In this document: in pieces, positions 358-57,728 of the stretch | Position numbering within the stretch: the stretch's first letter is position 1 | Layout of the letters: every line of letters starts with the position of its first letter | NCBI RefSeq assembly: GCF_963576615.1 | Contig: NC_088717.1 | Span: 50,321,026-50,385,025, forward strand | Origin: Watersipora subatra | Lineage: Eukaryota; Bryozoa; Gymnolaemata; Cheilostomatida; Watersiporidae | Direction: 5' to 3' | DNA: 64,000 nt | Translations under genes and position numbers: made by a program | The notes under the pieces: model-generated | Databases searched by the model: none | Told to the model about the DNA's origin: nothing | The model's input: only the letters and a program-made list of their open reading frames with translations

Positions 358-515
358 GTTAGTTAAACAGGATGGCTCTAATGATGAAGTGAGACATGCT
401 AGTGCAGGTGGTTTTGATGCTGTAGTAAGACAAGCTAGTACAGGTGGCTCTGATGCAAAATATTTGATGTTGCCAACAACAACAGAGAAAGCTGAAACTG
501 TTCCACACACCTCAG
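358..515 (+). CDS. Gene X, exon B (12-residue repeat exon), first in window
   Basis: A 158-nt exon follows the acceptor ACTTGCAG and ends at the donor CTCAG|GTATGT. It starts in phase 2 and ends in phase 1, which fits an upstream A exon outside the window and the C exon at 6,869. It encodes RLVKQDGSNDEVRHASAGG followed by one clean repeat, VVRQASTGGSDA, then a Thr-rich tail. Reading through the donor reaches a stop at 571, a possible retained-intron end. Five B exons share the same borders (this one, 9,344, 27,157, 36,075 and, at its donor side, 45,520). Function is unknown. Confidence 0.72.
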
Positions 516-2159
516 GTATGTCTTCTGTTAGCAGCACTGTAGGTGGTTTATACGCTGAAACATCCAATTAGATCTACGTTAGTGGATTTCCTCTTCATTA
601 AAAGTAGTAGTTTAATTATCATTGAAATATTTGATCTTCTTTCTTGAAGTCTGTAGCTGTGTCTTTGGTGAAATCTACAGCTTGTAATCATAATCAGAAG
701 ACCTTTTAAACACCAGAGCTATTGAACATCAGGTTTAAATAAGATAATTTCATCAGCCTTGCGTGACATCTCCCTAGCTTCAGGTTTGCATTGACTATAA
801 AGTATGAAGCAAAAAGCTTGCTTTAGGTTTCAATGTCCTAGTGACACAATTTTTACCACAGAAGTTTTCTTATTGAAAACGAAAGCTGTAATGACTAAAA
901 ACTGACAGCAATGGCAGCTTGCAAAGTTTTTATGACAAAAAAGTGCCCTTCAGTAAGATTTTTTATTGAGTTTTGCGTAAAATTTAGTTAATTTTCAAAG
1001 TTTTTTAAACCTCAAACTTTAGTATGTCATAATATAACATCTTAGCTATCTTAAAGTTTAAATTTCTTAAAAATAGGCCTTGAGGTCCATTATTTATTAA
1101 CGGTTTTGTGACGTCTCTTCAGGATGCAAATGCTTGCGTAAAAAGGACAACACGATAGCCGTAATACCCTAATGTGTATGGTAGGGCAGCATGTTGCAAC
1201 ACACTGTGTTTACTGCCTTTCAAGAATATAGTACGCCATTTCGATGTTCTGTATACTTCATCCTATTCACTAAAACTCAAGTACAAAGGAGACAACTCCT
1301 AATCAAATAAATAGTTTATTTTCAAAGCGTATTTGCATATATAAACACAACTGTAACCATATATACCTTACAATATCGAATCATTACGAAGGAATCTATT
1401 TGTTTTAACGTAAAATGCTCAAATTGAACTTAACTCATCTAAATAAAACTACAGTAAAGTCGTCCAAAATTCATAGTCGACATCCCTATTTCAGTCTTTA
1501 TCATCGGCTTCCTCATCAGTGCTCTATGTTAAAAAAATGTCTCGATCGGCTATTATGGATTCATATCAGTCTTCGTTTATTGAAAGATCTTCATCTCCTC
1601 TAAGATGCTCACGTTCATAGATTTCAAATACTCACCTATGAACAACAAAGGAAATGCTTCATATTTTGAGCAGCAATAGGACAATTATTTGCAGATTACC
1701 AATAATTTTACCTGGATCATTCTCATCGATCAGCGTCAGCTCGAAACCCTTTTCTTCACTGGTCTTCACTCTTCTTCCTGTATCTAAAATACGTGGCTAC
1801 GTTTGTACCTTAGAACCCTGATTACAATTTATTAAGACTCAGTAAATTAGAATGGTATGTCAACTGATTCTGATTATTATGTTAGCTGAATCATAATATA
1901 GTAAGTCATGCAAAAGTGCACACGAATCGAGTAGAATCAGGAAATTGAACATACAAACATAAGAAAACTACACAACAGCGATAAATAACTACGAGCGTGC
2001 ATTGTTAGCTCGCAATAGTGCAACAATTGCAATAGAAATAACTCGCACGAAAGTAACTGCGACCATATACTAACAATTAAAAATACTTATCTCCATATGT
2101 ATATAAGTACAAAATATGTATTTTAAACTGGCCTAATATCTTCTATATATATATATCAA

Positions 2160-2305
2160 AGTTGGTCAAATGTGTGTTTGTCCAACTATAGCTATTAAAA
2201 TCTTGGAATAAAGAATCTGTATCACAGAAGATTTGAGCTCGGGCCCTCCCATTCACTAGTCCAATGCCTTACCAATTCAACCACACAAGCTTGATGAAAT
2301 CATTA
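2160..2305 (-). repeat. tRNA-like segment (SINE head candidate)
   Basis: Read on the minus strand, about 2,235-2,295 contains a good Pol III A-box-like stretch (TGGTTGAATTGGTAAGG) and a weaker B-box-like stretch (GAGCTCAAATC) at roughly tRNA spacing. It has no pairing acceptor stem and no intact cloverleaf, so it is not a tRNA gene. The second duplication copy has it at about 28,960-29,105. Confidence 0.42.
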
Positions 2306-2359
2306 GGCGATATATGTCACTATATGGGAGCAAATCTAGTGTATATATCTATATATATC

Positions 2360-2850
2360 TCATTGTTTGTTGGTCTATATGTACATGTGTCCAATTATAA
2401 TGACAAAGTTTTAACAATGAAAAATTTGCTGTGCACTGGATTTGAACTTGCAAGCCCTAGTTTAGCAGACAGGTATTTATCCAATGCTATGCATTGTCAA
2501 ACTGGCTGTACTATGGAATAAATTGTGCACATACTCATTACACACGCAAATCTTATATGGCTTCAGGCTTGACACTTCAGCTAGCTTTATGCTAGAATTC
2601 TTGACCAGAAGAGAAATGATTGAACTCACATGGGCAGCAAGGCTATTGCAAAGAGATGTGGTAGGCACTGCAGTCGGAACAGTATGAATTACAAAGAAAT
2701 AAACACAGTACACAGGAATAAACATCTTCATTTAAACGTTAACATGAAAAATGTTTTGTGTTGATTAAAAGTAAAATTTTCGTTCAAAATTTTTTTATTA
2801 CTCAAGCAAACCGGCATTTGACTAGTTTATATGTACACATGTGTATATAA
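2360..2850 (-). repeat. Dispersed SINE-like repeat with B-box-like motif
   Basis: This is a repeat of about 490 bp next to TA-rich sequence. Its minus strand contains GTTCAAATCC, a good Pol III B-box match. A diverged copy at about 58,735-59,260 shares the order of blocks: the gaaaaat-tgct-gcactgg-tttgaactt core, the ttgtgcacatact block and the tattact-atgc distal block. The duplicate lies at about 29,150-29,650. No coding capacity is apparent. Confidence 0.5.
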
Positions 2851-2870
2851 ATATTAGCATAGTCATACCT

Positions 2871-3960
2871 TTAACTCATTCGCACCCGACCGATTTCTAG
2901 GCAATTAGCTTCAGATACCGCTACTTTTTCATAAAGTTGCCGTAATTCAAATTACTACTACAGGAGACAGACTTGAGATAATTTACTCATTCAATCTTCA
3001 CAAGAACCAGCCAAGTCTTTTCTTTCAAATTATATTACATTCATATAGACAACTCATATCCCTTTTATGTAGATCCGTGCCTCAAAGAAGGTAGTTTCAG
3101 GAAATTTCCAATTTTAAAAAGATTGTTATTTGCTGAAACAAAGTTAGATTTGCGCCATAAAAATTGCAAAATATACAAAGCCTGACTGAAATTACTCATT
3201 TATTACAGACAATACATAGTTATAAGTATTATTTATACATATGTAGTTAGTCATGAACATGAAAATCATGAAACTCTACCTTCGAACTTTGCCTCACGAG
3301 TATCATTTTTCAAACAAAAGCATAGGTAATCTATATGCCAATATAACTCAAATAAAACGCCATGAAAATAGTTCAAATAATAAAAATAGTTCAATAACTC
3401 TGTCATTAACTCTTGACTTTTCAGAATTCATAGACAGCTCTGAGAATCAATATGATCCTATCGAAACTGAAAGATAACGTTAGTCTGACTACGGCTGGCA
3501 GCGTGAAGAGTGCATTTTTATTCGAGCATAACAATTCAAATTGGCAAAATTAAAAGTTAATAAAAACTTTGAAGCATTAAAAATGATGTTTTAATTTGAT
3601 TTATGCAGTCTTTCAATGTCTTACCACTTTTGAATCTGCATATTTACTGCTGGAGTTGAAAAAAGATTTTCTTGAACTATAAAATTTCAAGTCGGCATGA
3701 TGATTTCCGGTACTGGTAGATATTGAGATGGGTGTACTAGTTTGGTTAGAACTTTTGCAAGATACGTCATGGAGGCATATTTTAAAGTTTGTCTGATTGG
3801 CCAGAAATTTTTCTTTCTAACTAATCAAAAATATTATTTTATAATTTAAAAATAACGATGCAAGGAGTTGGTAAATTTCAGACGCGAGTTGACTCGCATT
3901 GAGTGCCTAGCAACGTTATAAATACGCCAGTTAACTCGCGCCTGGGTGCGAATGAGTTAA
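2871..3960. mobile_element. Non-autonomous TTAA-flanked DNA transposon (piggyBac-like candidate)
   Basis: The ends are TTAACTCATTCGCACCC on the left and the reverse complement GGGTGCGAATGAGTTAA on the right, giving a 13-bp perfect terminal inverted repeat inside TTAA target duplications. The interior of about 1.08 kb has no transposase. A TTAA target is characteristic of piggyBac elements, and that assignment is inferred from the target site alone. The duplicate at 29,669 has lost its right end. Confidence 0.6.
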
Positions 3961-6868: not shown

Positions 6869-8469
6869 GTTTAGATGAGAGTGATTTGAGCAGCACTTCA
6901 GCAATAAACATGATACTATGGCATTGGTGGAAGTGTTTCCGCAAGCTCTGGCCATGCATTTCTGCTATCTCACTCTGTATACTTTCGCTTGAAAAAGTCG
7001 CAAGAACAAGATTAGCCGAATTATTTGCCGACTCCATCTCCGAACGGGATGATTGCATCGAGTTAGCAAAAAAGGTCATCAATAAAGGGTATTATAAGGT
7101 GCAACCAGCAAAGTTAGTTGACTTGTTGACACCGTTTACCCAAAAAGAACTAAAGGAATGGAAACCTCAACAGTTTCCAGATTTTGTAAAAAGAACTTCC
7201 AGAGCTGAAAAGACAATGTTGCTGGAATCACTTGAAAATGTTGAAGGAGGCAGACTCAAAGACGAAGCTCAGAAGCTCCAGAAAAAGCGAAAGAAAGCAG
7301 AATCGGATCTACAAGCGAGTGCAGGCAAAATCTTATCAAGTTGCGAGAAAAACATTTTGATCAGAATCGAACATAAAATGAATGAGATGTATTCGGTTGC
7401 TGACAAATGGAGAGATGGGTTGATCCAAGCTTTTAGCGGGCCGCCAATCGATGAGGACTTTGGGACTTTTTTAGATAAGAAAAGTGAAAGTGAGCTGGGA
7501 GTTTTGTTCAGCGCTCTAATAGAAGCTGTAACTGATAAGGCTTCTCTTCCAAGCAGTCGCAATGATAAGCCTTTTAATGATTTCAAGAGAGAATATGGAC
7601 AAAGAAATCACTTCAAATTGTCTTTGGAAAAGCGAGCTTCAAAAATGTTCTCATCAGATAGAGCCTACTTTGTTGAAAAGATGATGGATCAAGGTCAAAC
7701 CCGAGATGGTGCAAACGCATTTGCAACTTTGGTAGAGCATATCGAAAAATGTGAGGAGGCTGAAAAACATCTGAGAAGTGTTGCTAAAGTTGTAAAAGCT
7801 GGTACTCAAAGTGACGATGAAACAGAGTATTTGAGAGAATGGAAGATGTACTGCAAAGCCCATCAGAGTTCGAAAGAAAATGCCATTCTAATTTTGTCAT
7901 CGTGCAATTCCGAGTTATATAAAACCTTGAACGAGAAACTGGAAGGCGCATTCACTCGCCGTGGTATGATACTGAAAAGATGGCAAAGGTTTTTCGCGAC
8001 ATCTGAGGACGTTGCTGCAGACGACGTTGAAAAACGTTTGAAAGAAGAAGACGAGCCAGGTGATTTATATGAAGTGCTCGATAAGGTTCTTCAGCAATCG
8101 CCTACCCAGGGTTTGGAGGTAACACAATTGCTCCAAGACGCTATGCAAGAGAATAAGTTTGTAGACTCACACTTGGGTGAACTCTTACTACGCTGTAGAA
8201 ACGATTTCCTTGACCAATTCATTAAGGAGCTGAGACAACTGGTAACTTGTAAAGCGATTCTTTCTGCATCCCTGACCATGGGAGATTTCGTACAGGCTAT
8301 GAAAGACCAAAAGGCTAAAATAAAACACGTGGATCTGGAGAAATTGCACGACCTTGTAAAGACTCGCAATGACGTTGTAAAAGTACGATTTGAGTTTAAG
8401 GACAATGAACAGAGAGAAAGGTACATCAAAGGAATAAGAGACTTTGCAGAACAAACTGGTCGGCTAAAG
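6869..8469 (+). CDS. Gene X, exon C (533-codon helical module)
   Basis: The exon starts after TTTTTGTAG in phase 1 and ends at CTAAAG|GTATTT in phase 0. The in-frame stop at 8,485 is intronic, because the AAAG|GTA donor is kept in the paralogs. The product begins LDESDLSS, then a Trp/Cys-rich hydrophobic segment (LWPCISAISLCILSLEK, about residues 26-42), then charged, predicted helical sequence. A motif related to ILSSC recurs three times (about residues 154, 341 and 437, the last as LLLRC), each followed by an amphipathic helix and a F..F-L..L segment. This suggests divergent internal repeats. There is no signal peptide, no catalytic signature and no family I recognise. Confidence 0.78.
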
Positions 8470-8681: not shown

Positions 8682-8749
8682 GAGGTCGAGGACATACTTC
8701 TTGTTTTTGGTTCTGAGAAAGCACCAGAATTCATCGAATACGTGATAAG
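8682..8749 (+). CDS. Gene X, exon A (68 nt)
   Basis: The exon follows TTTGTTGTAG and ends at ATAAG|GTATGA, running phase 0 to 2. It encodes EVEDILLVFGSEKAPEFI then EYVI, and the split Arg codon is completed by the next B exon. Five copies in the window (14,185, 26,274, 35,412, 57,150 and this one) keep exactly 68 nt and the EVEDxLxV core. That length and phase conservation is the main evidence that it is a real exon. Confidence 0.75.
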
Positions 8750-9343: not shown

Positions 9344-9501
9344 GTTAGTTGAACAGGATGGCTCTATTGATGAAGTGAGACAAACTAGTGCAGGTGGCTG
9401 TGATGCTGTAGTAAGACAAGCTAGTACAGGTGACTCTGATGTAAAATATTTGATGTTGCCAACAACAACAGAGGAAGCTGAAACTGGCCTACACACATCA
9501 G
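9344..9501 (+). CDS. Gene X, second exon B
   Basis: This 158-nt exon has the same acceptor, donor (CATCAG|GTATGT) and phases (2 to 1) as the first. It encodes RLVEQDGSIDEVRQTSAGG, then VVRQASTGDSDV and the Thr-rich tail. The next phase-1 acceptor of the same gene is at 11,739, where a greatly expanded repeat exon begins. Confidence 0.7.
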
Positions 9502-11700: not shown

Positions 11701-11738
11701 AGAATGGAAAACTGGTAAACATTGTTATAACATTGTAG

Positions 11739-13056
11739 CAGGACAAGCTAGCACTGGTGACTCAGATGTAGTGAGACGATCTATCAAGGTGAATCTTATG
11801 CTGTAGCAAGACAAGCTAGCACAAGTGACTCTTATGTTGTAGCGAGACAAGCTAGCACAGGTGGCTCTTATGCTGTAGCAAGACAAGCTAGCACAGGTGA
11901 CTCGTGCTGTAGCAAGACAAGCTAGCACAGGCTACTCTTATGCTGTAGCAAAACAAGCTAGCACAGGTGACACTTACGCTGTAGCAAGACAAGCTAGCAC
12001 AGGTGACTCTTACACTGTAGCAAGACAAGCTAGCACAGGTGACTCGTGCTGTAGCAAGACAAGCTAGCACAGGCTACTCTTACGCTGTAGCAAAACAAGC
12101 TAGCACAGGTGACACTTACGCTGTAGCAAGACAAGCTAGCACAGGTGACTCTTATGCTGTAGCAAGACAAGCTAGCACAGATGGTTCTTATGCTGTAGCG
12201 AAACAAGTTAGTACAGGTGACTCCTATGTTGTAGCAAGACAAGATAGCACAGGTGACTCTTACGCTGTAGCAGAACAAGCTAACATAGGTGACTCTTACA
12301 CTGTAGCAAGACAAGCTAGCACAGGTGACGCATACGCTGTACCAAGACAAGCTAGCACAGGTGGCTCTTATGCTGTTGCAAAACAAGCTAGCACAGGTGA
12401 CTCAGATGCTGTAGCAAGACAAGCTAGCACAGGTGACTCTTACGCTGTAGCAAGACAAGCTAGCACAGGTGGCTCTTACGTTGTAGCAAGACAAGCTAGC
12501 ACAGGTGACTCTTACGTTGTAGCAAGACAAGCTAGCACAGGTGACTCGTGCTGTAGCAAGACAAGCTAGCACAGGCTACTCTTACGCTGTAGCAAAACAA
12601 GCTAGCACAGGTGACACTTACGCTGTAGCAAGACAAGCTAGCACAGGTGACTCTTATGCTGTAGCAAGACAAGCTAGCACAGATGGTTTTTATGCTGTAG
12701 CGAAACAAGTTAGTACAGGTGACTCCTATGTTGTAGCAAGACAAGATAGCACAGGTGACTCTTACGCTGTAGCAGAACAAGCTAACATAGGTGACTCTTA
12801 CACTGTAGCAAGACAAGCTAGCACAGGTGACGCATACGCTGTACCAAGACAAGCTAGCACAGGTGGCTCTTATGCTGTTGCAAAACAAGCTAGCACAGGT
12901 GACTCAGATGCTGTAGCAAGACAAGCTAGCACAGGTGACTCTTACGCTGTAGCAAGACAAGCTAGCACAGGTGGCTCTTACGTTGTAGCAAGACAAGCTA
13001 GCACAGGTGACTCTTACGTTGTAGCAAGACAAGCTAGCACAGGTGACTCATATGTT
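11739..13056 (+). pseudogene. Gene X, expanded exon B of 36-bp repeats, frame broken
   Basis: After ACATTGTAG, a phase-1 acceptor, come about 36 tandem 36-bp units encoding AVARQASTGDSY variants. The first units already contain a 1-nt loss. Three units (near 11,896, 12,038 and 12,540) are 34 nt instead of 36 and throw the frame into a TAG, so no single ORF spans the exon; open stretches run 12,039-12,569 and 12,541-13,059. The last two blocks are a 502-bp higher-order repeat (13 units of 36 plus one of 34) repeated almost exactly. The array ends GACTCATATGTTTAA and joins directly to C-type sequence. Confidence 0.8.
12039..13042 (+). repeat. Two copies of a 502-bp higher-order repeat
   Basis: Positions 12,039-12,540 and 12,541-13,042 match unit for unit, including rare variants (VPRQAST, EQANIG, KQVSTG, RQDSTG). 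One clear difference is GGTTCT against GGTTTT in the fifth unit. A shorter relative (four units, 142 bp) precedes them at about 11,897-12,038. Confidence 0.9.
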
Positions 13057-13948
13057 TAAAAAAAAGCTTTCAGAAAAGCGTATGAAGAAAGAGAGCAATC
13101 CAAATCACATTTGTAAAAACAAGCTGCGGAGATGTTTTCATCAACTGATGTGTATTTTGTTGAAAAGGTGTGTTATCAAAGTAAAGATGAAAGCATCACC
13201 AAGACAATGATGACTTATCACGTAAAAGGTATTAAAAAAAGTGAAGAACCGGAAAAGCTACTAACTAAAGTTGCGGAAATTTTTGAAAGTGGTACTCAGA
13301 GAAACGATGAAGTCAAGTTTCTGAAGGAAAGAGGTGAGTATGAAAAAGCTCATCAATCTGCAAAAGAGAATGCCATTCTAATTTATTCATTGTGTAAATC
13401 GAAGTTACATGAAAACTTGAGCAAAATTCTGGAGTTCACAATCACTTCCCGGGACAAGCCACTGAAAACGTTTCAAGATCTTTTTTACAGAACCCTATGA
13501 CATCACCACGGACAGTGTTAAAAGCCTTTTGACGAAAGAAGATAAAAAGGATGAGTTTTATGAAGTGTTCTTTGCAACTCTTCACCAATCAGCTCCTCAT
13601 GATAAAGAGATAGAAGGTTTGCTTCAAGAGGCTCAGCAGTTTAAGCAGAATGTAGAGTCAAGCTTGAGTAAAATCTTACTGCTCTGTAAAAATGGTTTCC
13701 TCAATAAGTTTGTTGAGGAGCTGAAAAAACATGTAATTTGTAAAGCCATTTCTGACCATGAGTGCTCTCATTCAGGCTATGAAAGACCAAAATGCTAAAA
13801 TAGAACAGGTGAGTCTGAAGCATTTGCGAGGGCTATCAGCCACTTGCAATAATACAGTATATATGCTATTTGAGTTCAATGGCGATGAATTGAGAGAAAG
13901 TTATATCGGAGGATTAATGGGATTTACAGATTCATTCCATCAAAAAAG
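13057..13948 (+). pseudogene. Gene X, 5'-truncated and frameshifted exon C
   Basis: Sequence equivalent to C-exon residues from about 230 to the end follows the repeat array with no intron, so the N-terminal 40 percent of the module is missing. There is an in-frame TAA at the junction (13,057-13,059) and another near 13,112. An extra T in a T-run near 13,486 shifts frame, and a deletion near 13,756 shifts it again. Recognisable blocks are AAEMFSSTDVYFVEKV, AKENAILIYSLCKSKL, LSKILLLCKNGFLNKF and ALIQAMKDQNAKIEQV. The donor-like AAAAAG|GTAGCT is kept. It is most similar to the C exon at 55,336. Confidence 0.8.
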
Positions 13949-14184
13949 GTAGCTTTATCAGCATAGTCATAGTGACACACAAATAGTCAGTTTACCAAAG
14001 ATTTTAAAATAATTTTAACCTCGTAATCACTCAACTATTATGATAATAATTAATTACATGGCATGGATTTGGGCTTTCCAGATTGTGTTCATAATTTGAG
14101 TTTGTACAAACCTACCTATTTTACATCTTGCATCTTGATTTGTAATTAATATGGACTTTAGTGACATGTTTGTGTATGCTGTAG

Positions 14185-14252
14185 GAAGTCGAGGACACGC
14201 TTGTTGTTGCTGGTTCTACGGAAGCAGCAAAATACATCAAATACTGCATTGG
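14185..14252 (+). pseudogene. Gene X, exon A with a mutated donor
   Basis: The exon encodes EVEDTLVVAGSTEAAKYI then KYCIG after TATGCTGTAG. The paralog at 57,150 has GG|GTATGT, and here the same place reads GG|ATATGT, so the canonical GT donor is lost. This fits decay of the downstream half of gene X. Confidence 0.65.
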
Positions 14253-14830
14253 ATATGTTTATTTAATGTATGGCATTTAGTAAAATATTTTCTTATCACC
14301 ACCAAACACTGACTTTCAGTGATGTAATTGCATTCCTTTACCGAAGAGCTCAAGTCATTCTGTAAAGCCATAAATGAGCAGGCTCCCTGTAGCTCCGTCT
14401 ATTTTTATTAACGATGTCCTTTAGTTTCCACATGAAGATTAACAATAACACTGTACTCAGCTTTTGTAATAAAATTCACAGTGAAGTTGTTTCTGAAACC
14501 CTTCATCCTCCTGACCTGGAATTGTAGCATACTCCTTTCCACGGTTTATTTTCTGGTTTACCCTTCATGGTTTACTAGAAATGTTATTATTGTCTGAAGT
14601 TATTTTATATACAGAGGGTTTCTGGTATGGATTGCTGACACTGATGTAGACTGCACAGAGCAGGTGCTTGGTCACAGCATTGATTGTTTTTAATCTTACA
14701 TGGTTATTATTGTCACTATTATTATTCACTGTTTATTGCCATGTTACTTGCTTGAATTTGTTCAGAGAACTAAAACAATTGCCTAAATATACTAAAACAA
14801 GTTACTATATAAAAATGTGTATACTTTTAG
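14253..14830 (+). other. Intron between exon A and the short B exon of gene X
   Basis: This 578-nt interval resembles the other A-to-B introns in its first two thirds. It ends ATACTTTTAG. No further feature was seen. Confidence 0.5.
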
Positions 14831-14869
14831 GTTAGTTGAAGAGGATGACAAAGATAAAGAAGAAATTAG
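14831..14869 (+). CDS. Gene X, short B-type exon (39 nt)
   Basis: The exon follows ATACTTTTAG and ends at ATTAG|GTAAGA, phase 2 to 2. It encodes RLVEEDDKDKEEIR. The opening RLV and the conserved upstream intron show that it derives from exon B, but the 12-residue repeat is absent and the charged peptide leads straight into the coiled-coil exon. The gene Z counterpart (57,690-57,728) has the same length, phases and donor. Confidence 0.62.
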
Positions 14870-15500
14870 GTAAGATTTCTACTAGCCAGCTAACTTCCTT
14901 CACATATCATCTCGTCAGCTAATTTAACTTGATTGTACATTGGACTGTACAAATCCTCCGTCAAGGTCTTGATACACTTTGACACTCCATATTTCAAACT
15001 TGTGTATACAAGGTTAGGCTTCAAAGGTTTAAACAATTGAGAAATTTGAGTAAGGCGATTGCAGAGATGAATACAGCAGCTGTAAATCTGTAGTTGTCAT
15101 TAGTTACCTTGAAAAAAGAGGCTGCATATGCTGACAGTTTGAGGTCTAGTATAACTGGTTTCAATTTTAGCTGTCAGTCTTCGCAGTTTCAGTTGAAACT
15201 CTTTGTACATATTTGGAGAGTAAGAAAAGTTCGATTTTAACTAACCTCATGGTCAGAATTATCTGCTTTCACGAATGAATTTATTATTGTGTACATGAAT
15301 TTTGTAAGAATTGTTTTGTAGCAAATTCACAATGACTGTTAATCTCAGTTTAGAACCCATTTTTAGCTACAACAAAAGCTGTCACAAAAGGATAACTGCC
15401 ATCATAAAGTATCTACCACTTGTACCCTCTTTTTATTAGGAAACAGCCAGTAATTATGGTTTAAAAACTTTAGCAACGCATTTAGGATTTTTAATTCTAG
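14870..15500 (+). other. Intron before the terminal coiled-coil exon
   Basis: The interval is 631 nt. Its distal part (from about 15,170) is repeated at 18,510-18,840 and 39,620-39,950, ahead of each decayed copy of the next exon. No coding sequence was seen. Confidence 0.55.
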
Positions 15501-15678
15501 AGAACTTAGAGCAAAGGTGGATGAATTGAAAGACCAAAAGTCATATCAAGACAACATTATTGATGAAAGACATAACCACATGTAAAAACTGGAACGCCGT
15601 GAGGCAGAGAGATTGCAAACTATTGATTAGCTTGAAGATATGGCTAAAGAGATGTTACAAATGCGTCAAAACCTCTAA
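15501..15678 (+). CDS. Gene X, terminal coiled-coil exon
   Basis: After TTAATTCTAG the exon opens in phase 2, completing the Arg codon of the 39-nt exon. It encodes ELRAKVDELKDQKSYQDN, then IIDERHNHM and a TAA at 15,583. In the same frame, reading on gives KLERREAERLQTID, a TAG, then LEDMAKEMLQMRQNL and TAA at 15,676. The continuation is strongly heptad-like, and a paralog at 18,849 keeps it in another frame, so the two internal stops are probably disabling mutations in a longer coiled-coil tail. A natural short ending at 15,585 is the alternative. Confidence 0.55.
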
Positions 15679-15964
15679 TCAGCTCAACACAACTAAAACA
15701 CAACTAATAAAATATTTTGGTTGGCTTGAGAGTTATCATACCCTTATTCACGATTGGCAAGAAAAGATAACTTCATCTAGTAACCATCCACTGTCATTAC
15801 AATATTTAATAGCGTGATTTTTATTAACTCCTTCTGTTTAAGTTTTCTTTCTTATTCTTATTGACTTCTTATCGTGTTTTATATTAATTATAGACCGGTA
15901 GAGGAGCGCTCTTTCTTTCCTGACTATGTAACTTATTTATGTAACTATGTAACTTTCTTTTCTG
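15679..15964. other. Interval downstream of gene X
   Basis: The interval is AT-rich, with no ORF or splice context. The block TAGAGGAGCGCTCTTTCTTT near 15,900 is repeated near 19,215 and 40,320, marking the junction between the coiled-coil region and repeat R. Confidence 0.45.
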
Positions 15965-18505: not shown

Positions 18506-19299
18506 ATTACAAGCTTTGCTGTCTTCCCAGCTTCAGTTGAAATTCTGTGTACATATTTAGAGAGCGAGAAAAGTCTGATTTTAACCCACTGAACCTCATG
18601 GTCAGAATTATCTGCTTGCATGAGTAAATTTATTATTGTGTACATGAATTCTTTATGACTAGTTTTGTAGCAAAATCGCAATGACTGGTAATCTCAGTTT
18701 AGAACCCATTTTTAGCGGCAACAAAAGTTGTCAAAAAGAGATATCTGTCAATATAAAGTATTTACCACTTGTGCCCTTTTCTATTAGCAAACAGTGAGTA
18801 ATTATGGTTTGAAAACTTCAGCAACGCGTGTGAGATTTTTAATTTCAAAGAACTTACAGCAGAGGTAGATGAATTAAAAGATCAAAAGTCATATCAAGAC
18901 AACATTATTGATGAAAGACATAACCGCATACCGACTGGAACATCGTGAGGCAGAAAGGTTACAAACTATTGATTACCTTAAAGAGATGACTAAAGAGATG
19001 TTACAAATGTGTCAATCAGCTTAACACAACTAAACTCAACTAATAAAATAAAATAAATAGTCTCATACCTTTATTCATGATTGCCGAGGAAAGATAACTT
19101 CATCTAGTAATTATCCACTGTCATTACAATATTTAATAGAGTGATTTTGATTAACTACTGCTGTTCTTATTGACTTCTTATCTTGTTTTATATTTTATAT
19201 TAATTATAGACCAGTAGAGGAGCGCTTTTTCTTTTCTGACTACGCTATTTCTTTATGTAATTACGCAACTTTCTGTATTGTGTGGTTGCTTATTTATCT
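18506..19299 (+). pseudogene. Decayed duplicate of the terminal coiled-coil exon
   Basis: Positions 18,849-19,024 match the exon at 15,501. The acceptor has changed from CTAG to TCAA, and a frame break after DERHNRI separates VDELKDQKSYQDNIIDERH from LEHREAERLQTIDYLKEMTK. No short B exon precedes it. It appears to be a non-functional copy carried with repeat R. Confidence 0.6.
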
Positions 19300-22929: not shown

Positions 22930-22987
22930 ATGGATCCACCAGAACATATTCCAGCAACACAGTCCCTGAGCAGCTCCAAGTCTCCAA
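22930..22987 (+). CDS. Gene Y, start exon
   Basis: AAAAAGATGG opens a 58-nt coding exon, MDPPEHIPATQSLSSSKSP, ending at CCAA|GTGAGT in phase 1. The gene Z copy at 44,037-44,094 is identical in protein and donor. No upstream in-frame extension is needed, and the A at -3 and G at +4 suit an initiator. It has no signal-peptide character, so the product is likely cytoplasmic or nuclear. Confidence 0.72.
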
Positions 22988-23366: not shown

Positions 23367-23555
23367 GTAGTCAATCTTGCCAAGATGACTCAGATGTTGA
23401 AGGAGAGATGGATTTACCAAAACTGGAGTCTGAGACTGACCCATATGTTGAAAAAGTGATGGATTTACCAAAACTGGAGTCTGAGAGTGACCCATATGTT
23501 GAAAAAGTGATGGATTTACCAAAACTGGAGTCTGAGACTGACTCAAAGTCTACAG
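23367..23555 (+). CDS. Gene Y, exon 2 with three 17-residue repeats
   Basis: A 189-nt exon, phase 1 to 1, follows TTCTCTAG and ends at CTACAG|GTTCGT. It encodes SSQSCQDDSDVEGE, then MDLPKLESETDPYVEKV three times (the last one cut short), then DSKST. The acidic Ser/Asp/Glu-rich repeat is probably disordered. Gene Z has only two repeats in its equivalent exon, so copy number is changing. Confidence 0.72.
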
Positions 23556-24490: not shown

Positions 24491-26139
24491 GTTCAGATGA
24501 GGGTGGTTTGAGCAGCATGTCAAAAATAGAAATGCCAACCCTTCAATGGTTGGAGGGTTTTCCCGCGTTGTTGCCATTCATTTGCGCTATCTCACTCTGT
24601 GTATTTTCGCTCGAGAAAATCTTCAAACCAAAAGTAGTAAAATTATTTGCTGATTGCGTTTCTGAAAAGGATGATTGTTTACAGCAAGTACGGCAAGTCG
24701 TCAAGAGAGGGCGTGAAAAGAAACAACCAGCATGTCTAGTTGACTTTTTGGAAACCTGTACCCAAAAAAAACTACAAGAATGGGAACTTCAACAGTTTTT
24801 AGATTTTGTAAAAGGAACTTCCAGAGCTGAGAAGACAATGTTGCTGGAATCACTTGAAAATGTTGAAGGAGGCAGTCTCAAAGACGAAGCTCAGAGGCTC
24901 CAGAAAAGGCGAAAGAAAGCAGAATCAAATCTGCGAGTGAGTGCAAGCAAAGTCTTGCAAAGTTGCAAGAAAAACATTTTGACCAGAATCCAACATGAAA
25001 TGAGCAGGATGTATTCGGATGCTGACAAATGGAGAGATGAGTTCATCGAATTTTTTAGCGGGCCGCCAATCGATGAGGCTACTATTAGGACTTTTCTAAA
25101 CAAGAAAAGTGAAAGTGAGCTGGGGGTTTTGTTCAGCGCTCTAAATAAAGCTGTAATTTGTATGACTTCTCCTTCAAGCACTCACAATGATAAGCCTTTT
25201 AATGATTTCAAGAAAGAATATGGACAAAGAAATCGATTCAAATTGTCTTTGAAAAAACAAGCTTCAAAAATGTTCTCATCAGATAGAACCTATCTTGTTG
25301 GTAAGATGGTGGATGAGCGTCTAACCCAAGATGGTGTTCTTGTTGAAAAGATGGATGAACGTCAAATCCGAGATGATGCAAACGCATTTGCAACTTACAT
25401 TGTAGAGCATATTGAAAAATGTGAAGAGGCTGAGAACCATCTGAAAAGGGTTGCTAACGTTGTACAAGCTGGTACTCGGCTTGACACTGAAACAGAGTAT
25501 TTGAGAGAATGGAAGACGTACTGCAAAGCTCATCGGGGTTCAAAAAAATGTGCCATTCTAATTTTGTCATCGTGCAATTACGAGTTATATCAAACCTTGA
25601 ACGAGAAACTGGAAGGCGCATTCACTCGCCGTGGCGTGATACTGAAAAGATGGCAACAGTTTTTCGCGACATCTGAGGACGTTGCTGCAGACGATGTTGA
25701 AAAACGTTTGAAAGAAGAAGACGAGACAGGCGATTTATATCAAGTGCTCGATAAGGTTCTTCAGCGATCGCCTACCCAGGGTTTGGAGGTAACACAATTG
25801 TTCCAAGACGCTATGCAAGAGAATAAGTTTGTAGACTCAGACTTGGGTCAACTCTTACTACGCTGTAGAAACGATTTCCTTGACCAATTCATTAAGGAGC
25901 TGAGACAACGGGTAACTAGTAAAGCGATTCTTTCTGCATCCCTGACCATTGGATGTTTCATACAGGCTGTTAAAACTCAAGCTGTTAAAATAGAACAGGT
26001 GGATCTGAACAACATGAAGAAGCTAGTAGACATTCAAAGTGAAATCCTCCACCTCCTCTTTGAGCTCAAACACCCTGAAGAGAGAGAAAGTTTAATCAAA
26101 AGTATAAATGACTTTGCGGAGCAAACTGGTCAAAAAGAG
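24491..26139 (+). CDS. Gene Y, first exon C (549 codons)
   Basis: The exon starts after CATTTTGTAG in phase 1 and ends at AAAGAG|GTAGCT in phase 0. It encodes GSDEGGLSSMSKIEM, a hydrophobic stretch (ALLPFICAISLCVFSLEKI), then the helical module with three ILSSC-type motifs (LQSC, LSSC, LLRC). The block from about 24,825 to 25,950 is close to the C exons at 6,869 and 33,544, and the two ends are strongly diverged, which makes this a mosaic. It carries a 16-residue insertion relative to 6,869, with VGKMVDERLTQDG and VEKMDERQIRDD as a near-duplicate pair. Function is unknown. Confidence 0.78.
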
Positions 26140-26273: not shown

Positions 26274-26341
26274 GAAGTCGAGGACATCCTTTTTGTTGCT
26301 GATTTTGAGAGAGCATCAGAAGTCATCGAATATTCGATAAG
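26274..26341 (+). CDS. Gene Y, first exon A
   Basis: The 68-nt exon follows TATGCTGTAG and ends at ATAAG|GTATGT, phase 0 to 2, encoding EVEDILFVADFERASEVI then EYSI. Acceptor, length and donor match the other A exons. It links the C exon to the B exon at 27,157. Confidence 0.74.
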
Positions 26342-27156: not shown

Positions 27157-27314
27157 GTTAGTTAAACAGGATGGCTCTAATGATGAAGTGAGACATGCTA
27201 GTGCAGGTGGTTTTGATGCTGTAGTAAGACAAGCTAGTACAGGTGGCTCTGATGCAAAATATTTGATGTTGCCAACAACAACAGAGAAAGCTGAAACTGT
27301 TCCACACACCTCAG
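27157..27314 (+). CDS. Gene Y, first exon B
   Basis: It appears identical in protein to the B exon at 358-515, with the same acceptor, donor and phases (2 to 1), and encodes RLVKQDGSNDEVRHASAGG and VVRQASTGGSDA. Its position after an A exon in matching phase confirms the A-to-B order that is cut off at the window start for gene X. Confidence 0.72.
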
Positions 27315-33543: not shown

Positions 33544-35192
33544 GTTTAGATGAGAGTGATTTGAGCAGCATTTCAACAATAAACATGATAGCATGGCAAT
33601 GGTGGAGGCGTTTCCTCAAGCTCTGGCCATGCATTTCTGCTATCTCACTCTGTATACCTTTGCTTGAAAAAGTCGCAAGAACAAGATTAGCCGAATTATT
33701 TGCCGACTCCATCTCCGAACGGGATGATTGCATCGAGTTAGCAAAAAGGTTCATCAATAAAGGGTATTATAAGGTGCAACCAGCAAAGTTAGTTGACTTT
33801 TTGACACTGTTTACCCAAAAAGAACTAAAGGAATGGAAACCTCAACAGTTTCCAGATTTTGTAAAAAGAACTTCCAGCGCTGAAAAGACAATGTTGCTGG
33901 AATCACTTGAAAATGTTGAAGGAGGCAGTCTCAAAGACGAAGCTCAGAAGCTTCAGAAAAAGCGAAAGAAAGCAGAATCGGATCTACAAGCGAGTGCAGG
34001 CAAAATCTTATCAAGTTGCGGGAAAGACATTTTGAAAGGAATCCGACATGAAATGAGCAGGATGTATTCGGATGCTGACAAATGGAGAGATGAGTTCATC
34101 AAATTTTTTAGCGGGCCGCCAATCGATGAGGCTACTATTAGGACTTTTCTAAACAAGAAAAGTGAAAGTGAGCTGGGGGTTTTGTTCAGCGCTCTAAATA
34201 AAGCTGTAATTTGTAAGACTTCTCCTTCAAGCACTCACAATGATGAGCCTTTTAATGATTTCAAGAAAGAATATGGACAAAGAAATCGATTCAAATTGTC
34301 TTTGAAAAAACAAGCTTCAAAAATGTTCTCATCAGATAGAACCTATCTTGTTGGTAAGATGGTGGATGAGCGTCTAACCCAAGATGGTGCTCTTGTTGAA
34401 AAGATGGATGAACGTCAAATCCGAGATGATGCAAACGCATTTGCAACTTACATTGTAGAGCATATTGAAAAATGTGAAGAGGCTGAGAACCATCTGAAAA
34501 GGGTTGCTAACGTTGTACAAGCTGGTACTCGGCTTGACACTGAAACAGAGTATTTGATAGAATGGAAGACGTATTGCAAAGCTCATCGGGGTTCCAAAAA
34601 AAGTGCCATTCTAATTTTGTCATCGTGCAATTACGAGTTATATCAAACCTTGAACGAGAAACTGGAAGGCGCATTCACTCGCCGTGGCGTGATACTGAAA
34701 AGATGGCGAAGGTTTTTCGCGACATCTGAGGACGTTGCTGCAGACGATGTTGAAAAACGTTTGAAAGAAGAAGACGAGATGGGTGATGTATATCAAGTGC
34801 TCGATAAGGTTCTTCAGCGATCGCCTACCCAGGATTTGGAGGTAACACAATTGTTCCAAGACGCTATGCAAGAGAATAAGTTTGTAGACTCACACTTGGG
34901 TCAACTCTTACTACGCTGTAGAAACGATTTCCTTGACCAATTCATTAAGGAGCTGAGACAACTGGTAACTTGTAAAGCGATTCTTTCTGCATCCCTGGTC
35001 ATGGGAGATTTCCTGTCAGCTATAGAAAGCGAAAAGACTAAAATAGAACCTGTGGATCTGGAGAAATTGCGTGACCTTGTAAAGACTCGCAATGACATTG
35101 TGAAGGTGCGATTTGAATTCGAACACAATAAACAGAAAGAAAGGTTCATCAAAGGAATAAAAGACTTTGCAGAACAAACTGGTCGGCTAAAG
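33544..35192 (+). CDS. Gene Y, second exon C (549 codons)
   Basis: The exon starts after TTTTTGTAG in phase 1 and ends at CTAAAG|GTATTT in phase 0. It is the positional duplicate of the C exon at 6,869, and its first ~145 and last ~80 residues match that exon (for example SISERDDCIEL, DLVKTRNDIVKVRFEF, FAEQTGRLK). The middle (from about HEMSRMYSDADKWRDE to LGQLLLRCRND) instead follows the C exon at 24,491, including its 16-residue insertion VEKMDERQIRDD. A gene-conversion or unequal-exchange patch is the simplest explanation. Module features are as described for 6,869. Confidence 0.78.
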
Positions 35193-35411: not shown

Positions 35412-35479
35412 GAAGTCGAGGACATACTTCGTGTTGTTGGTTCTGAGAAAGCTCCAGAATTCATCGAATACGTGATAAG
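35412..35479 (+). CDS. Gene Y, second exon A
   Basis: The 68-nt exon follows TTTGCTGTAG and ends at ATAAG|GTATGA, encoding EVEDILRVVGSEKAPEFI then EYVI, phase 0 to 2. It is closest to the A exon at 8,682, as expected for its duplicate. Confidence 0.74.
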
Positions 35480-36074: not shown

Positions 36075-36196
36075 GTTAGTTGAACAGGATGGCTCTGATG
36101 CTGTAGTGAGACAAGCTAGTACAGGTGACTCTGATGTAAAATATGTGATGTTGCCAACAACAACAGCGAAAGCTGTAACTGTCCTACACACATCAG
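36075..36196 (+). CDS. Gene Y, second exon B (shortened)
   Basis: At 122 nt this is 36 nt shorter than the other B exons. It encodes RLVEQDGSDAVVRQASTGD then SDVKYVMLP and the Thr-rich tail, phase 2 to 1. One 12-residue unit has been lost cleanly. No phase-1 exon C follows before gene Z, so either the gene ends by reading through the donor to TAG at 36,250-36,252 (adding GMSSVSSTVGGSYAETSN) or its 3' end was removed by the deletion near 37,450. Confidence 0.65.
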
Positions 36197-39605: not shown

Positions 39606-40404
39606 TAGAATTACAAGCTTTGCTGTCTTCCCAGCTTCAGTTGAAATTCTGTGTACATATTTAGAGAGCGAGAAAAGTCTGATTTTAACCCACTGAACCT
39701 CATGGTCAGAATTATCTGCTTGCATGAGTAAATTTATTATTGTGTACATGAATTCTTTATGACTAGTTTTGTAGCAAAATCGCAATGACTGGTAATCTCA
39801 GTTTAGAACCCATTTTTAGCGGCAACAAAAGTTGTCAAAAAGAGATATCTGTCAATATAAAGTATTTACCACTTGTGCCCTTTTCTATTAGCAAACAGTG
39901 AGTAATTATGGTTTGAAAACTTCAGCAACGCGTGTGAGATTTTTAATTTCAAAGAACTTACAGCAGAGGTAGATGAATTAAAAGATCAAAAGTCATATCA
40001 AGACAACATTATTGATGAAAGACATAACCGCATACCAACTGGAACATCGTGAGGCAGAAAGGTTACAAACTATTGATTACCTTAAAGAGATGACTAAAGA
40101 GATGTTACAAATGTGTCAATCAGCTTAACACAACTAAACTCAACTAATAAAATAAAATAAATAGTCTCATACCTTTATTCATGATTGCCGAGGAAAGATA
40201 ACTTCATCTAGTAATTATCCACTGTCATTACAATATTTAATAGAGTGATTTTGATTAACTACTGCTGTTCTTATTGACTTCTTATCTTGTTTTATATTTT
40301 ATATTAATTATAGACCAGTAGAGGAGCGCTTTTTCTTTTCTGACTACGCTATTTCTTTATGTAATTACGCAACTTTCTGTATTGTGTGGTTGCTTATTTA
40401 TCTA
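39606..40404 (+). pseudogene. Decayed coiled-coil exon, second duplicate
   Basis: Counterpart of 18,506-19,299. The exon remnant is at about 39,953-40,128, with the same lost acceptor (TTCAA) and the same frame break after DERHNRI. It cannot serve as the 3' end of gene Y as it stands. Confidence 0.6.
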
Positions 40405-44036: not shown

Positions 44037-44094
44037 ATGGATCCACCAGAACATATTCCAGCAACACAGTCCCTGAGCAGCTCCAAGTCTCCAA
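44037..44094 (+). CDS. Gene Z, start exon
   Basis: ATG in AAAAAGATGG opens MDPPEHIPATQSLSSSKSP, ending at CCAA|GTGAGT in phase 1. It is identical to the gene Y start exon. Here the gene continues into an intact B exon. Confidence 0.72.
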
Positions 44095-44473: not shown

Positions 44474-44611
44474 TTAGTCAACCTTGTCAAGAGGACTCAG
44501 ATGTTGAAGGAGAGATGGATTCACCAAAACTGGAGTCTGCGAGTGACCCATATGTTGAAAAAGTGATGGTTTTACCAAAACTGGAGTCTGAGAGTAACTC
44601 AAAGTCTACAG
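44474..44611 (+). CDS. Gene Z, exon 2 with two 17-residue repeats
   Basis: The exon is 138 nt, phase 1 to 1, donor CTACAG|GTTCGT. It encodes ISQPCQEDSDVEGE, then MDSPKLESASDPYVEKV and MVLPKLESESNSKST. It is 51 nt shorter than the gene Y exon, exactly one repeat. Several amino-acid changes are packed into a short stretch compared with the near-identical introns on either side. Confidence 0.72.
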
Positions 44612-45519: not shown

Positions 45520-46044
45520 ATCATGTTGCAAAAGAAGCTAGTACAGATGACTTAGACATTAAAGAAAAGCAAACTAGCGCAGTACCAGGTGACTCAGGTG
45601 CTGTGGCAAGACAAGCTAGCACCAGTGACTTAGATGCTGTAACAAGACACGCTAGCACAGGTGACTCAGACGATGTAGCAAAACAAGCTAGCACAAGTGA
45701 CTCAGATGCCGTAGAAAAACAAACTAGCACAAATGACTCAGCTGCTGTAGCAGAACAACCTAGCACAGATGGCTCAAGGGATGTAGTACGACAAGCTAGC
45801 ACAGGTGACTCTGATGCTGTAGCCAAACAAACTAGTATAGGTGACTCAGACGATGTAGCAAGAAAAGCTAGCAATGGTGACGCAGATATTGTAGCCAAAC
45901 AAGCTAGCACAGGTGACTCAAATGCTGTAGCAAAAGCAGATAGCACAAGTTCCTCAGATGCTGTAGCAAGACAAGTCAGCTCAGGCGGCTCTGATGTGAC
46001 AGATTCAACAATGGAGGAAGCTGAAGCTATCTCGGACACCTCAA
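45520..46044 (+). CDS. Gene Z, long exon B of 12-residue repeats, frame intact
   Basis: A 525-nt exon, phase 1 to 1, follows CTATTTTAG and ends at CCTCAA|GTATGT. It encodes about 13-14 degenerate copies of the DAVARQASTGDS unit (for example DVAKQASTSDSD, DAVEKQTSTNDS, DIVAKQASTGDS), then MEEAEAISDTS. It has no stops or frameshifts, unlike the array at 11,739. Each unit carries an R/K-Q-A-S-T core next to an acidic S-D, so it is a regular low-complexity array of RxxS/T-type sites. A linker or multisite phosphorylation region is an inference only. Confidence 0.75.
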
Positions 46045-47315: not shown

Positions 47316-47316
47316 T

Positions 47317-53688: not shown

Positions 53689-53831
53689 AAGGATTACACC
53701 AAGGATGCTGCTAAAACATTGACTATTCATATAAACTTATTATTTACTCACCTTGTTGTCTTGTATCGCAGTAATAGTCCGGCTTGTTTACCTTTTATTT
53801 ATAGTCGTTTGCCGTCTATAGGGGCGGCGTG

Positions 53832-55335: not shown

Positions 55336-56951
55336 GTTCAGATGAGAGTAACTCGAGCGATGAGTCAAACAAAAAGTTGCTGGAATGGTTGCGATCACTC
55401 ATCGGGTTCTGGTCTTGCATTTCTGCTATTTCACTATGTGTAATTTCGGTTGACAAAACCTTTGCCCCAAAATTAGTAAAATTACTCGCTGGTTTCATTT
55501 CTGAAAAGGAAAAATTGGATGACTGTATGGATGCAGCAGAACAAGTCATTAAAATGGGGCATTATAAGGTGCTACCAGCAAAGTTAGTTGACTTTTTGAA
55601 GGTTTTTACCCAAAAGAAACTCGAGGAATGGGATGATGAGAAGTGTCTGAAACTTGTGAAGGGAACTTCTAGCACTGAAAAAAAAATGTTGCTAAATTCG
55701 CTAAAGAATGTTTTTGCATCACCGGACCAAAGAATAACAAGAAATCTCAAAAAAAAATTTCAGAAGCTGCAGAAGAAGAGCCTGAAAGTAGAATCCAATT
55801 TGCAACAGAGCGCAATCGAAATCTTGCCGAATTGTAGTGAAGTGTTTTTGACAAAAATTGAAACTGAACTCGACAGCAGGTATCCTGATGCAGACAAATG
55901 GAGAGATGATTTGATAAAATTTTTTGGTGGACAGCTACTCAATCAAACTGACATTAAAAAATTTTTAGCCGATAAAACTGAAAGTGACCTGGCCATTTTG
56001 TTTGATGCTCTGTACAAAGCCATAAACTTGAAAACCACTCATCAATACATGGAAATTAAGGAGAATATAAAAAGTTTCAGGAAATCGCATGAAAAAAGAC
56101 AGCAACTTAAACGGTTTTTAGAAAAAAAAACCAAAGAAATGTATAAAGGCATATTAGAATCTCAACATTTACTTGTGAAGATGACTGATGAAGGTTATCT
56201 CAACGCAATAGTAGAAGCTATTACAAACGATAATATAACTGATGAGCTACTAAGAAAAGTTGCTGATGTTTCAAAAAAAGGTGAGAAGCGTCAGGATGAA
56301 AAAGAGTTTATGCAAAAATGGAAAGTGTACGACGACGCTCATGAGGAATCGAAAAAGAATGCCATTCACATTTTGTCATCGTGTGATGTGAAGTTATACA
56401 AATCTTTGATCAAGAAACTGGATGGCGCAATCACTCTCCGTGGCAGGTCAATAAAAACATTTCAAGATTTGTTTGCGGAACAAGATGTTATTGCTCGAGA
56501 CAGCGTTCGAACGCTTCTGAGTGAAGCAGATGAAAAAGATGATTTTTATGAAGTGCTTAATGGAGTTCTTCGCCAGTCGCCTTCTGAGGGTTTGGCTGCA
56601 GAACAACCGTTTCTAGATAATATGCAAGAACTGAAGTCGGTTGACTCGGAATTGAGTAAAATCTTACTGAGCTGCAAAAATAGTTTCCTCGACAAGTTCA
56701 TTGAAGAGCTGAAAAAACATGTAATTGGTAAAGCCATCTCTGATGCATCTCTGACTACGGGTGATCTCATACAGGCTATAAAAAACCAAAATGCTAAAAC
56801 AGTTGAGCAGATTGATCTGGGTGACATGCAGCAACTAGTATTCACTCGCAATAGAGTCGTCCACTCACTTGTCCAATTTACTAGCCATGAACAGAAAGAA
56901 AGTTTTACCAAAAGGTTAAGGAGAATTTCATGGCAAACTAAACAAATAAAG
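55336..56951 (+). CDS. Gene Z, exon C (538 codons)
   Basis: The exon starts after TTATTTGTAG in phase 1, joining the A left by the B exon, and ends at ATAAAG|GTACAC in phase 0. It encodes SSDESNSSDESNKKLLEW, then a hydrophobic stretch (FWSCISAISLCVISVDK) and the helical module. ILSSC-type motifs are ILPNC, ILSSC and ILLSC. The sequence is the most diverged of the full-length C exons and has an additional ASPDQRITRNLKKKF segment. There are no internal stops. The truncated C at 13,057 is its nearest relative here. Confidence 0.78.
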
Positions 56952-57149
56952 GTACACAGAGAGTCATTTTATGAGAAATTTTAAATAAGGCCAAGCCCTA
57001 CTATCACTCAACTATTACTTTAATAGATGCATGCTACGTACTTGGGCTTTTAGACTGTGTTCATAACTCGAGTTTGTACAAACCTACACATCTTGTATCC
57101 TGATCTGTAATTAATATGGGCTTTAGTAACATGTTTGTGTATGCTGTAG

Positions 57150-57217
57150 GAAGTAGATGACATACTGTTTGTTGCTGATTCTAAAGAGGGAGCAGAATGC
57201 ATTAAGTCCTGCATTGG
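57150..57217 (+). CDS. Gene Z, exon A
   Basis: The 68-nt exon follows TATGCTGTAG and ends at ATTGG|GTATGT, phase 0 to 2, encoding EVDDILFVADSKEGAECI then KSCIG. Length and phases are conserved with the other A exons. Confidence 0.73.
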
Positions 57218-57689
57218 GTATGTGTCTTTAATGTATAAATAACTGGTGATTTATAGCTTTTAGTAAATTTTTTGTCACGCACACAAATTAAGATTCAATG
57301 AAGAAGCCGTACTATTGCACTCATGCACCAAGGAGCCTACTGAAAATGTAGCATACTCCTTTCCATGGTTTACTTGCTGCAAAATATTCTGTTACCTTCT
57401 TATACTAGAAATTTTGTTCTTGTCTAAAGCTACTTTGTATAGGGAGGGTTTCGGGTATGAATTGCGAAAACTGATGTTGACTGCATGGAGCAGGTGCTTG
57501 GCCACACAATAGATTTTTTTAACCTGTTATGGTAGCTGGAATATCAAATTGTGGTGCCATATTAAATATATTTGGTGGAGTCTTGCCTTGCAAGCAATTT
57601 GTGGAAGTGAAGAGTAAAATAATTTGTTTATTCAAAATCTTTCGTATGTCAAAAAAAGATTACTATATAGAAAGTACATATACTTGTAG
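57218..57689 (+). other. Intron between exon A and the short B exon of gene Z
   Basis: The 472-nt intron keeps the conserved CAAATTGTGG and ATTACTATATAGAAAG blocks before the acceptor TACTTGTAG. No other feature was seen. Confidence 0.55.
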
Positions 57690-57728
57690 GTTAGTAAAAG
57701 AAAATGACAGAAATAAAGAAGAAATTAG
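57690..57728 (+). CDS. Gene Z, short B-type exon (39 nt)
   Basis: The exon encodes RLVKENDRNKEEIR, phase 2 to 2, donor ATTAG|GTAAGA, parallel to 14,831-14,869. The expected terminal coiled-coil exon is not found between here and the window end. The intron appears to contain the TA microsatellites, the SINE-like repeat and the inverted Penelope pair, so the last exon probably lies beyond 64,000. Confidence 0.62.

Follow-up and report, generated by a model that had tools for sequence, protein, structure and literature searches.

How does a gene come to carry a cassette of several exons twice, in a single reading frame? This question is raised by a 64,000-nucleotide (nt) stretch of the genome of the cheilostome bryozoan Watersipora subatra, C10:50321026-50385025 on the + strand, hereafter the window; C10 is a chromosome-scale record of a 783,720,542-base assembly. 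The initial annotation had described there a modular gene family in which three exons, C, A and B, form a phase-symmetric cassette. It had noted the order B, C, A, B in one gene (gene X, here gene 2) and the order start, exon 2, C, A, B, C, A, B in another (gene Y, here gene 3). We found that the symmetric cassette, bounded by phase 1 on both sides, is indeed used twice in the models of these two genes. Moreover, exon B, which gives the cassette its symmetry, appears to be a chimera of two other exons of the same family.

We examined the exon borders copy by copy. The phases assigned earlier (1 to 0 for C, 0 to 2 for A, 2 to 1 for B) were found in all four full C copies of the window, in four of the five A copies and in all four B copies. 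The C exons measure 1601, 1649, 1649 and 1616 nt, and each has the acceptor TTTGTAG and a GT donor. All five A exons are 68 nt long with a GTAG acceptor; the one without a phase assignment lies in a dead copy (14185-14252) and no longer has a GT donor. Three B exons are 158 nt long and one is 122 nt long, all with the acceptor TGCAG and the donor TCAG/GTATGT. The splice borders described before need some correction: the C donor is AAAG/GTA in three of the four copies (AGAG/GTA at 26139), the B acceptor is TGCAG, and the longer form CTCAG precedes the B donor in two of the four copies. Similarly, the fixed length of A was true of the window and failed outside it. Exon A of gene 5 (C10:50410093) is 61 nt long by hand count and out of frame; the C exon of that gene is open over 537 codons despite this.

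The copies share their phases by descent, so that phase agreement between them is no independent evidence. The independent fact behind the symmetric cassette is that the lengths of C, A and B add up to a number divisible by three (1,827 nt when C has 1601 nt). The C acceptor and the B donor, which bound the unit, are both in phase 1 in genes 2 and 3. The stop-free runs of the C exons reach 558, 568, 572 and 588 codons, compared with a maximum of 156 codons in 20 single-base shuffles of the window read in three frames.

Gene models were assembled for genes 2, 3 and 4 and for part of gene 9, leaving out genes 5 to 8. Gene 2 has nine exons, eight GT-AG introns and 1,348 codons with a single stop at the end, and it contains two cassettes. 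Its start exon, exon 2, first C and first A lie to the left of the window, and the B, C, A, B order of the initial annotation is the right part of this gene. Gene 3 likewise has nine exons and eight introns, every one of them GT-AG, and comprises 4,059 nt and 1,352 codons up to a single terminal stop (its last exon is predicted); the order noted before was recovered in full. Neither gene has a start exon between its two cassettes. The sequence allows the use of both cassettes in one transcript of genes 2 and 3.

To see how far the family extends, we searched the assembly with C as the only query exon, and only the best candidates were scored. At least 18 matches were obtained with the C of gene 3 and at least 27 with the C of gene 9. 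All of them fell within 50.295-50.551 Mb of C10 on the + strand, forming one tandem array of about 260 kb, and none was listed in unrelated genes. Judged by these matches, the genes make up a tandem family, which was found at a single locus of Watersipora subatra. The array holds eight good matches to the start exon, with a MDPPEHIPATQ-like peptide; a ninth match (57% over 14 residues) was left out of the count. Genes 1 to 3, at the left end, have two cassettes each. Gene 4 has a single intact C, beyond which lies a broken piece of C (C10:50394286), and from gene 5 on there are five start exons, each followed by one C region. The idea that cassettes could be added without limit is therefore not supported by the layout of the array. 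The broken copy between genes 4 and 5 (C10:50394286-50394989) contains several stops and has no start exon of its own.

The basic single-cassette gene can be modelled as a start exon (phase 0 to 1), exon 2 (1 to 1), a repeat exon 3 (1 to 1), C (1 to 0), A (0 to 2), a separate exon B' (2 to 2) and a last exon entered in phase 2. B' is a 39-nt exon with a B-like beginning, present in the window at 14831-14869 and 57690-57728; with phase 2 at both ends it is unable to lead into another C. The model of gene 4 comprises six exons, from start to B', and is free of stops. In gene 9, C, A, B' and the last exon are spliced in frame to a single final stop, and the last exon is entered in phase 2, which is what B' requires. 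By pattern search, B' was found in genes 4, 6, 8 and 9 and in a remnant at about 11734-15700. This remnant, situated between the second B of gene 2 and the predicted last exon of that gene, has the appearance of a dead single-cassette gene. The hybrid exon B was seen in genes 1 to 3 only. Exon 3, built of 36-nt units that encode 12-residue repeats, varies in length between genes (45520-46044 is one example), and this variation may be a length polymorphism.

Comparison of these exons points to the origin of B, which appears to derive its 5' end and upstream intron from B' and its 3' end from exon 3. In all seven intact copies of the hybrid type, the sequence of the intron preceding B matches that of the intron preceding B' in gene 4 (73-88%; in one of the seven only 62 nt were compared). 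This match extends into the exon to B position 6-10, or to position 17 when the B' of the remnant is used. From exon position 10-14 onward, B aligns with the repeat units of exon 3; in six of the seven copies this similarity continues for 14 nt past the donor, the exception being the 122-nt B of gene 3. At the junction, CAGGATGGCTCT is common to all eight hybrid copies, one remnant included. We infer the direction, from B' and exon 3 to B, because the parents occur in divergent single-cassette genes and the hybrid only in genes 1 to 3. B' would thus have supplied the phase-2 acceptor of B, and exon 3 its phase-1 donor; this combination makes C-A-B symmetric. The phase symmetry of the cassette described in the initial annotation is real, while B would not be an original member of it.

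We propose that recombination joined the B' that followed one A to the exon 3 that preceded the next C, through either a fusion between neighbouring paralogues or unequal crossing-over. A junction roughly 6-19 nt into B' would have produced exon B. The product would have been an in-frame C-A-B-C-A-B gene, which was later duplicated whole to give three copies, and gene conversion would have homogenised the middle of exon C. We regard this account of anatomy and origin as very probable.

The later steps of this account can be followed in the C exons. A tree built on the 5' part of C grouped the first cassettes of genes 1 to 3 together (support 100/99) and likewise the second cassettes (100/99), and placed the two groups as sisters (98/97) relative to genes 4, 5 and 8. 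This topology suggests one cassette doubling followed by whole-gene duplications: the cassette was probably doubled once, with whole-gene tandem duplication afterwards. Large duplicated blocks are present in the window, with 98.9% identity between 1-3933 and 26800-30731 and 97.2% between 16353-23688 and 37476-44744. The second C of gene 3 is a mosaic. Over 226 informative sites it is of the second-cassette type up to 34020, of the first-cassette type from 34044 to about 34689-34893, and of the second-cassette type again thereafter, with scattered exceptions. A tree of the middle part of C moves this copy to the first cassettes (97/98). The second-cassette C exons of genes 2 and 3 are 88.9% identical, less than their adjoining introns (94.0-98.7%), which is the pattern that a converted tract would give. 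Overall, one clear conversion tract was found between copies, all of which are paralogues on one strand of one array. In bins of 90 columns, the first and second C of gene 2 are 63-74% identical in five end bins and 83-98% identical in the 14 bins between, which suggests older conversions between cassettes as well.

Several observations weigh against the proposed account. The models of genes 2, 3, 4 and 9 were built from genomic sequence alone. Searches of the array did not find the start exon of gene 1 or the last exon of gene 4, and the patterns used for B' gave no match in genes 5 and 7. The second C of gene 1 carries an in-frame stop. In the last exon of genes 1 to 3 the ancestral acceptor is altered and the next AG, 2 nt on, is predicted to be used; this shift would bring phase 1 into the last exon, as B requires. 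Substitution patterns in C add to these points. The ratio of nonsynonymous to synonymous substitution rates (dN/dS) lay at 0.87-0.95 when first cassettes were compared with second ones and ranged from 0.60 to 1.20 among the second cassettes, and the substitutions between cassettes were spread about equally over the three codon positions (97, 79 and 82). Together, the high ratios and the even spread suggest that part of the array may be drifting. Between the first C of gene 3 and the C of gene 4, two of the eight gaps (29 and 7 nt, in a DNA-only alignment) are not multiples of three. On the other hand, the other six are, as are all the gaps between cassettes (3, 42 and 3 nt), and dN/dS was 0.44 between genes 4 and 5 and 0.52-0.76 for deeper pairs. 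By these measures exon C is coding sequence that evolves fast or under weak constraint.

The same data bear on the possibility that the two-cassette loci are mostly non-functional, as recent duplicates under relaxed selection. Besides the high dN/dS (about 0.9 between cassettes, with values of up to 1.20 for pairs of second cassettes), the stop in gene 1 would fit this possibility, as would the shortened last-exon frames of genes 1 to 3 and the lack, in all six of their C exons, of a short R-N-x3-H motif discussed below. By contrast, an open frame of 533-549 codons is retained in five of these six C exons, genes 2 and 3 have intact splice sites, and the gap lengths between cassettes preserve the frame; we therefore consider general loss of function unlikely. 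It is also conceivable that C is a terminal exon, with read-through past its donor to a nearby stop (e.g. VFLSA*) giving single-cassette products while A and B decay. An in-frame stop does occur 5 to 10 codons beyond the C donor in all four window copies, and AATAAA is found near 8529. But 11 of 13 copies of A, all except those of gene 5 and the remnant, keep the 68 nt and the AG-GT borders; in gene 9, A is spliced in frame to B' and the last exon, up to a stop; no start exon separates the two cassettes of gene 2 or gene 3; and a database protein joins C to A to B. We give this reading very little credence.

That database protein, P0002, raises a further alternative, in which the array is one multi-cassette transcription unit whose cassettes are spliced into longer, variable transcripts across gene borders. 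P0002 (NCBI/UniRef, 'uncharacterized protein [Watersipora subatra]', 1,839 amino acids (aa)) is a model of the same locus and divides into nine segments whose limits coincide with the C, A and B borders of our gene models. It strings three C-A-B units across genes 2 and 3, which the phases permit: from gene 2 it takes the first C, A and B and then the second C and A, and from gene 3 the B at 27157, the C at 33544, the A that follows and the B at 36075. For three of the segments, the first A and the first two B, several copies match equally well, and these segments were assigned by their order. Three cassettes from two genes with no start exon count against our gene limits, which may differ from those drawn here. 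However, P0002 opens with a methionine inside C rather than with the conserved start exon, it passes over the second B of gene 2 as well as three exons of gene 3 (start, exon 2 and first C), and the B copies it draws on, at 358 and 27157, code for identical peptides. Because it bypasses gene 3's start exon and first cassette, we did not count it as a three-cassette gene. We read P0002 as an automatic merge of recent tandem copies; transcripts that cross gene borders seem improbable to us. Compared with the two-cassette genes proposed here, P0002 merges two neighbouring genes, lacks start and last exons and has no function assigned.

We next consider what exon C encodes. The C protein has about 460-549 residues (743 were compared in gene 9, where there is an internal duplication) and is predicted to be an all-helical domain. 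A first structure model, from four sequences, was poor, with a predicted local distance difference test score (pLDDT) of 40. With 11 sequences, the mean pLDDT rose to 67, with a predicted template modelling score of 0.53; ten-residue pLDDT means were 52-93 over residues 81-470 and lower at both ends. A profile self-comparison related columns 105-322 to columns 302-541 (P 4e-5, probability 71%), which suggests two related stretches within C. Near the start of C, a hydrophobic stretch reaches a Kyte-Doolittle mean of at least 1.6 in eight of 11 copies, and it may be a buried or membrane helix.

The earlier suggestion of an undescribed family is consistent with our profile and structure searches with C, which gave no characterised relative. 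Pfam scans of C yielded weak, inconsistent matches only. PF12552 (3.4e-6) was above its cut-off for the C of gene 9 alone among eight members and was rejected as a chance helical-repeat match, and PF09336, PF01906 and PF02413, listed in the database for P0002, were below the Pfam cut-offs in our own scans. PHROGs gave four families at 0.01, each in just one of 11 members, and PDB sequences gave best E values of 0.19 for one C and 0.039 for the profile; neither contained a credible relative, and fold searches of PDB and viral structures with the 11-sequence model gave no credible match. In a database of 5.8 billion proteins, C alone found nothing at 0.01; about 8,000 candidates were scored in each such search, so that other bryozoans may well have relatives that such a search would miss. 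The C profile led to P0001 and the spliced gene 3 protein to P0002, and no characterised relative was found. P0001 is an unnamed 485-aa protein on a 3,354-base ENA contig, sharing 85% identity over 475 residues with the C of gene 4 and 82% with that of gene 5; its form suggests a C exon that is read through as far as a stop. Among viral and prokaryote contigs, 173 and 157 stretches, respectively, carried two peptide patterns each, none of them a relative by tblastn. One exact DNA pattern of B' was not found in viral contigs, and Rfam gave nothing at gathering scores. Papers listed on symmetric or chimeric exons, HEPN expansions, orphan genes and bryozoans included none on the gene family, which does not prove that there is none.

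Near the C-terminal end of C, R-N-x3-H is present in four of 11 copies (genes 4, 5, 6 and 9) and in P0001; besides genes 1 to 3, gene 8 lacks it. In the HEPN superfamily, Rx4-6H with a polar residue after R is, according to a passage in PMC3710099, the main mark of a novel RNase site. The likeness of C to HEPN proteins lies in this motif, so short that a chance occurrence is possible. The difference is that C has no HEPN profile match and no confident model of the motif part: no HEPN family was among its Pfam matches, no HEPN-named entry was among the fold matches listed, and model residues 484-514, at the C end, have pLDDT below 50. With no profile or fold support, we treat the motif as a lead. 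One might imagine a new all-helical family at a defence or self-recognition locus, with single-cassette HEPN-like RNases and two-cassette proteins as their catalytically dead bivalent partners or regulators, but we regard this as a very remote prospect. Rapid change of the protein, turnover of genes and dead copies would be in keeping with defence or self-recognition. Our own tentative reading of the function, which we would not call probable, is an intracellular, mainly helical scaffold or adaptor. Globular C modules would then be spaced by Ser/Thr/Asp-rich, probably disordered linkers (exons 2, 3 and B) and followed by a coiled-coil-like tail, and the two-cassette proteins would be bivalent versions of the single-cassette protein. 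As the structure model is of moderate quality, this role is a guess, and a membrane helix in C would weigh against a soluble scaffold.

The features of the window are collected in the table.

Table. Exons, remnant and repeated units in the window (positions counted from the first base of the window; phases as entry to exit)
Feature	Position	Strand	Remarks
Exon B, first of gene 2	358..515	+	158 nt, phase 2 to 1
Exon C, second cassette of gene 2	6869..8469	+	1601 nt, 1 to 0; same border in P0002
Exon A, second cassette of gene 2	8682..8749	+	68 nt, 0 to 2; same border in P0002
Exon B, second of gene 2	9344..9501	+	158 nt, 2 to 1
Remnant, looks like a dead single-cassette gene	11734..15700	+	outer end approximate
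Parts of the remnant	11734-13049; 13063-13946; 14185-14252; 14831-14869	+	36-nt repeat array; broken C; A without GT donor; B'
Last-exon-like piece of the remnant	from about 15500	+	early stop
Last exon of gene 2 (predicted)	18851..18948	+	coiled-coil-like, entered in phase 1, stop
Start exon of gene 3	22930..22987	+	MDPPEHIPATQS..., phase 0 to 1
Exon 2 of gene 3	23367..23555	+	17-residue repeats, phase 1 to 1
Exon C, first cassette of gene 3	24491..26139	+	1649 nt, 1 to 0
Exon A, first cassette of gene 3	26274..26341	+	68 nt
Exon B, first of gene 3	27157..27314	+	158 nt, 2 to 1
Exon C, second cassette of gene 3	33544..35192	+	1649 nt; mosaic
Exon A, second cassette of gene 3	35412..35479	+	68 nt
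Exon B, second of gene 3	36075..36196	+	122 nt, one 36-nt unit shorter; 2 to 1
Last exon of gene 3 (predicted)	39955..40052	+	contains the final stop
Start exon of gene 4	44037..44094	+	single intact cassette
Exon 2 of gene 4	44474..44611	+	1 to 1
Exon 3 of gene 4	45520..46044	+	12-residue repeats, ARQASTGDSDAV-like, 1 to 1
Exon C of gene 4	55336..56951	+	1616 nt; contains RNRVVH
Exon A of gene 4	57150..57217	+	68 nt
Exon B' of gene 4	57690..57728	+	39 nt, 2 to 2
Copies of a repeated unit	10072-11724, 16944-18526, 19290-21034, 36790-37445, 38044-39630, 40394-42144		

Other repeats and mobile elements are interspersed with the genes. The repeated unit of the table, up to about 1.6 kb long and without a long open reading frame (ORF), is present in six copies, one of them partial, in the stretches that separate the last B of one gene from the start of the next. 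Within the gene 4 intron between exon 3 and C lies a Gypsy-type long terminal repeat retrotransposon (46870-54289) with reverse transcriptase, RNase H and integrase zinc-binding domains, the end repeats of which are 92.6% identical. A near-perfect palindrome occupies 59301-63907, with inverted arms of about 2.3 kb (98.6% alike over a 4.6-kb self-match) that share a long retroelement-like ORF (776 aa on the - strand, 606 aa on the + strand). These ORFs had no significant Pfam match, and we take them, by eye, to be Penelope-like. Outside the window, a tandem repeat at C10:50415001 (L016:1-2589) is free of stops over 863, 858 and 612 codons in its three forward frames and is probably a satellite array. 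Transposase pieces were found beside the array (HTH_Tnp_Tc3_2/DDE_3, L033:6925-8025, - strand) and within it (DDE_Tnp_4, L019:2034-2495, - strand).

The locus offers a readable case of the birth of a symmetric cassette, in which two exons would fuse and a one-domain gene would become a two-domain gene in frame. A single array still holds both kinds of parent exon, the chimera, the single-cassette layout and a conversion tract between cassettes. It also presents a rapidly changing protein family, undescribed as far as our searches show, in an animal phylum described as understudied in PMC13326412.

Two known modes of evolution can be compared with this locus. Exon shuffling in animals uses symmetric class 1-1 exon modules. 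C-A-B resembles such a module in being bounded by phase-1 introns and present twice in frame. It differs in that it consists of three exons, was seen in one orphan family only and includes one exon that is itself a recombination junction. Tandem multigene families with gene conversion are likewise a known kind of evolution, and the present locus resembles them in its single array, in the birth and death of copies and in the conversion tract in C. Here, by contrast, the tract runs between two cassettes of one gene.

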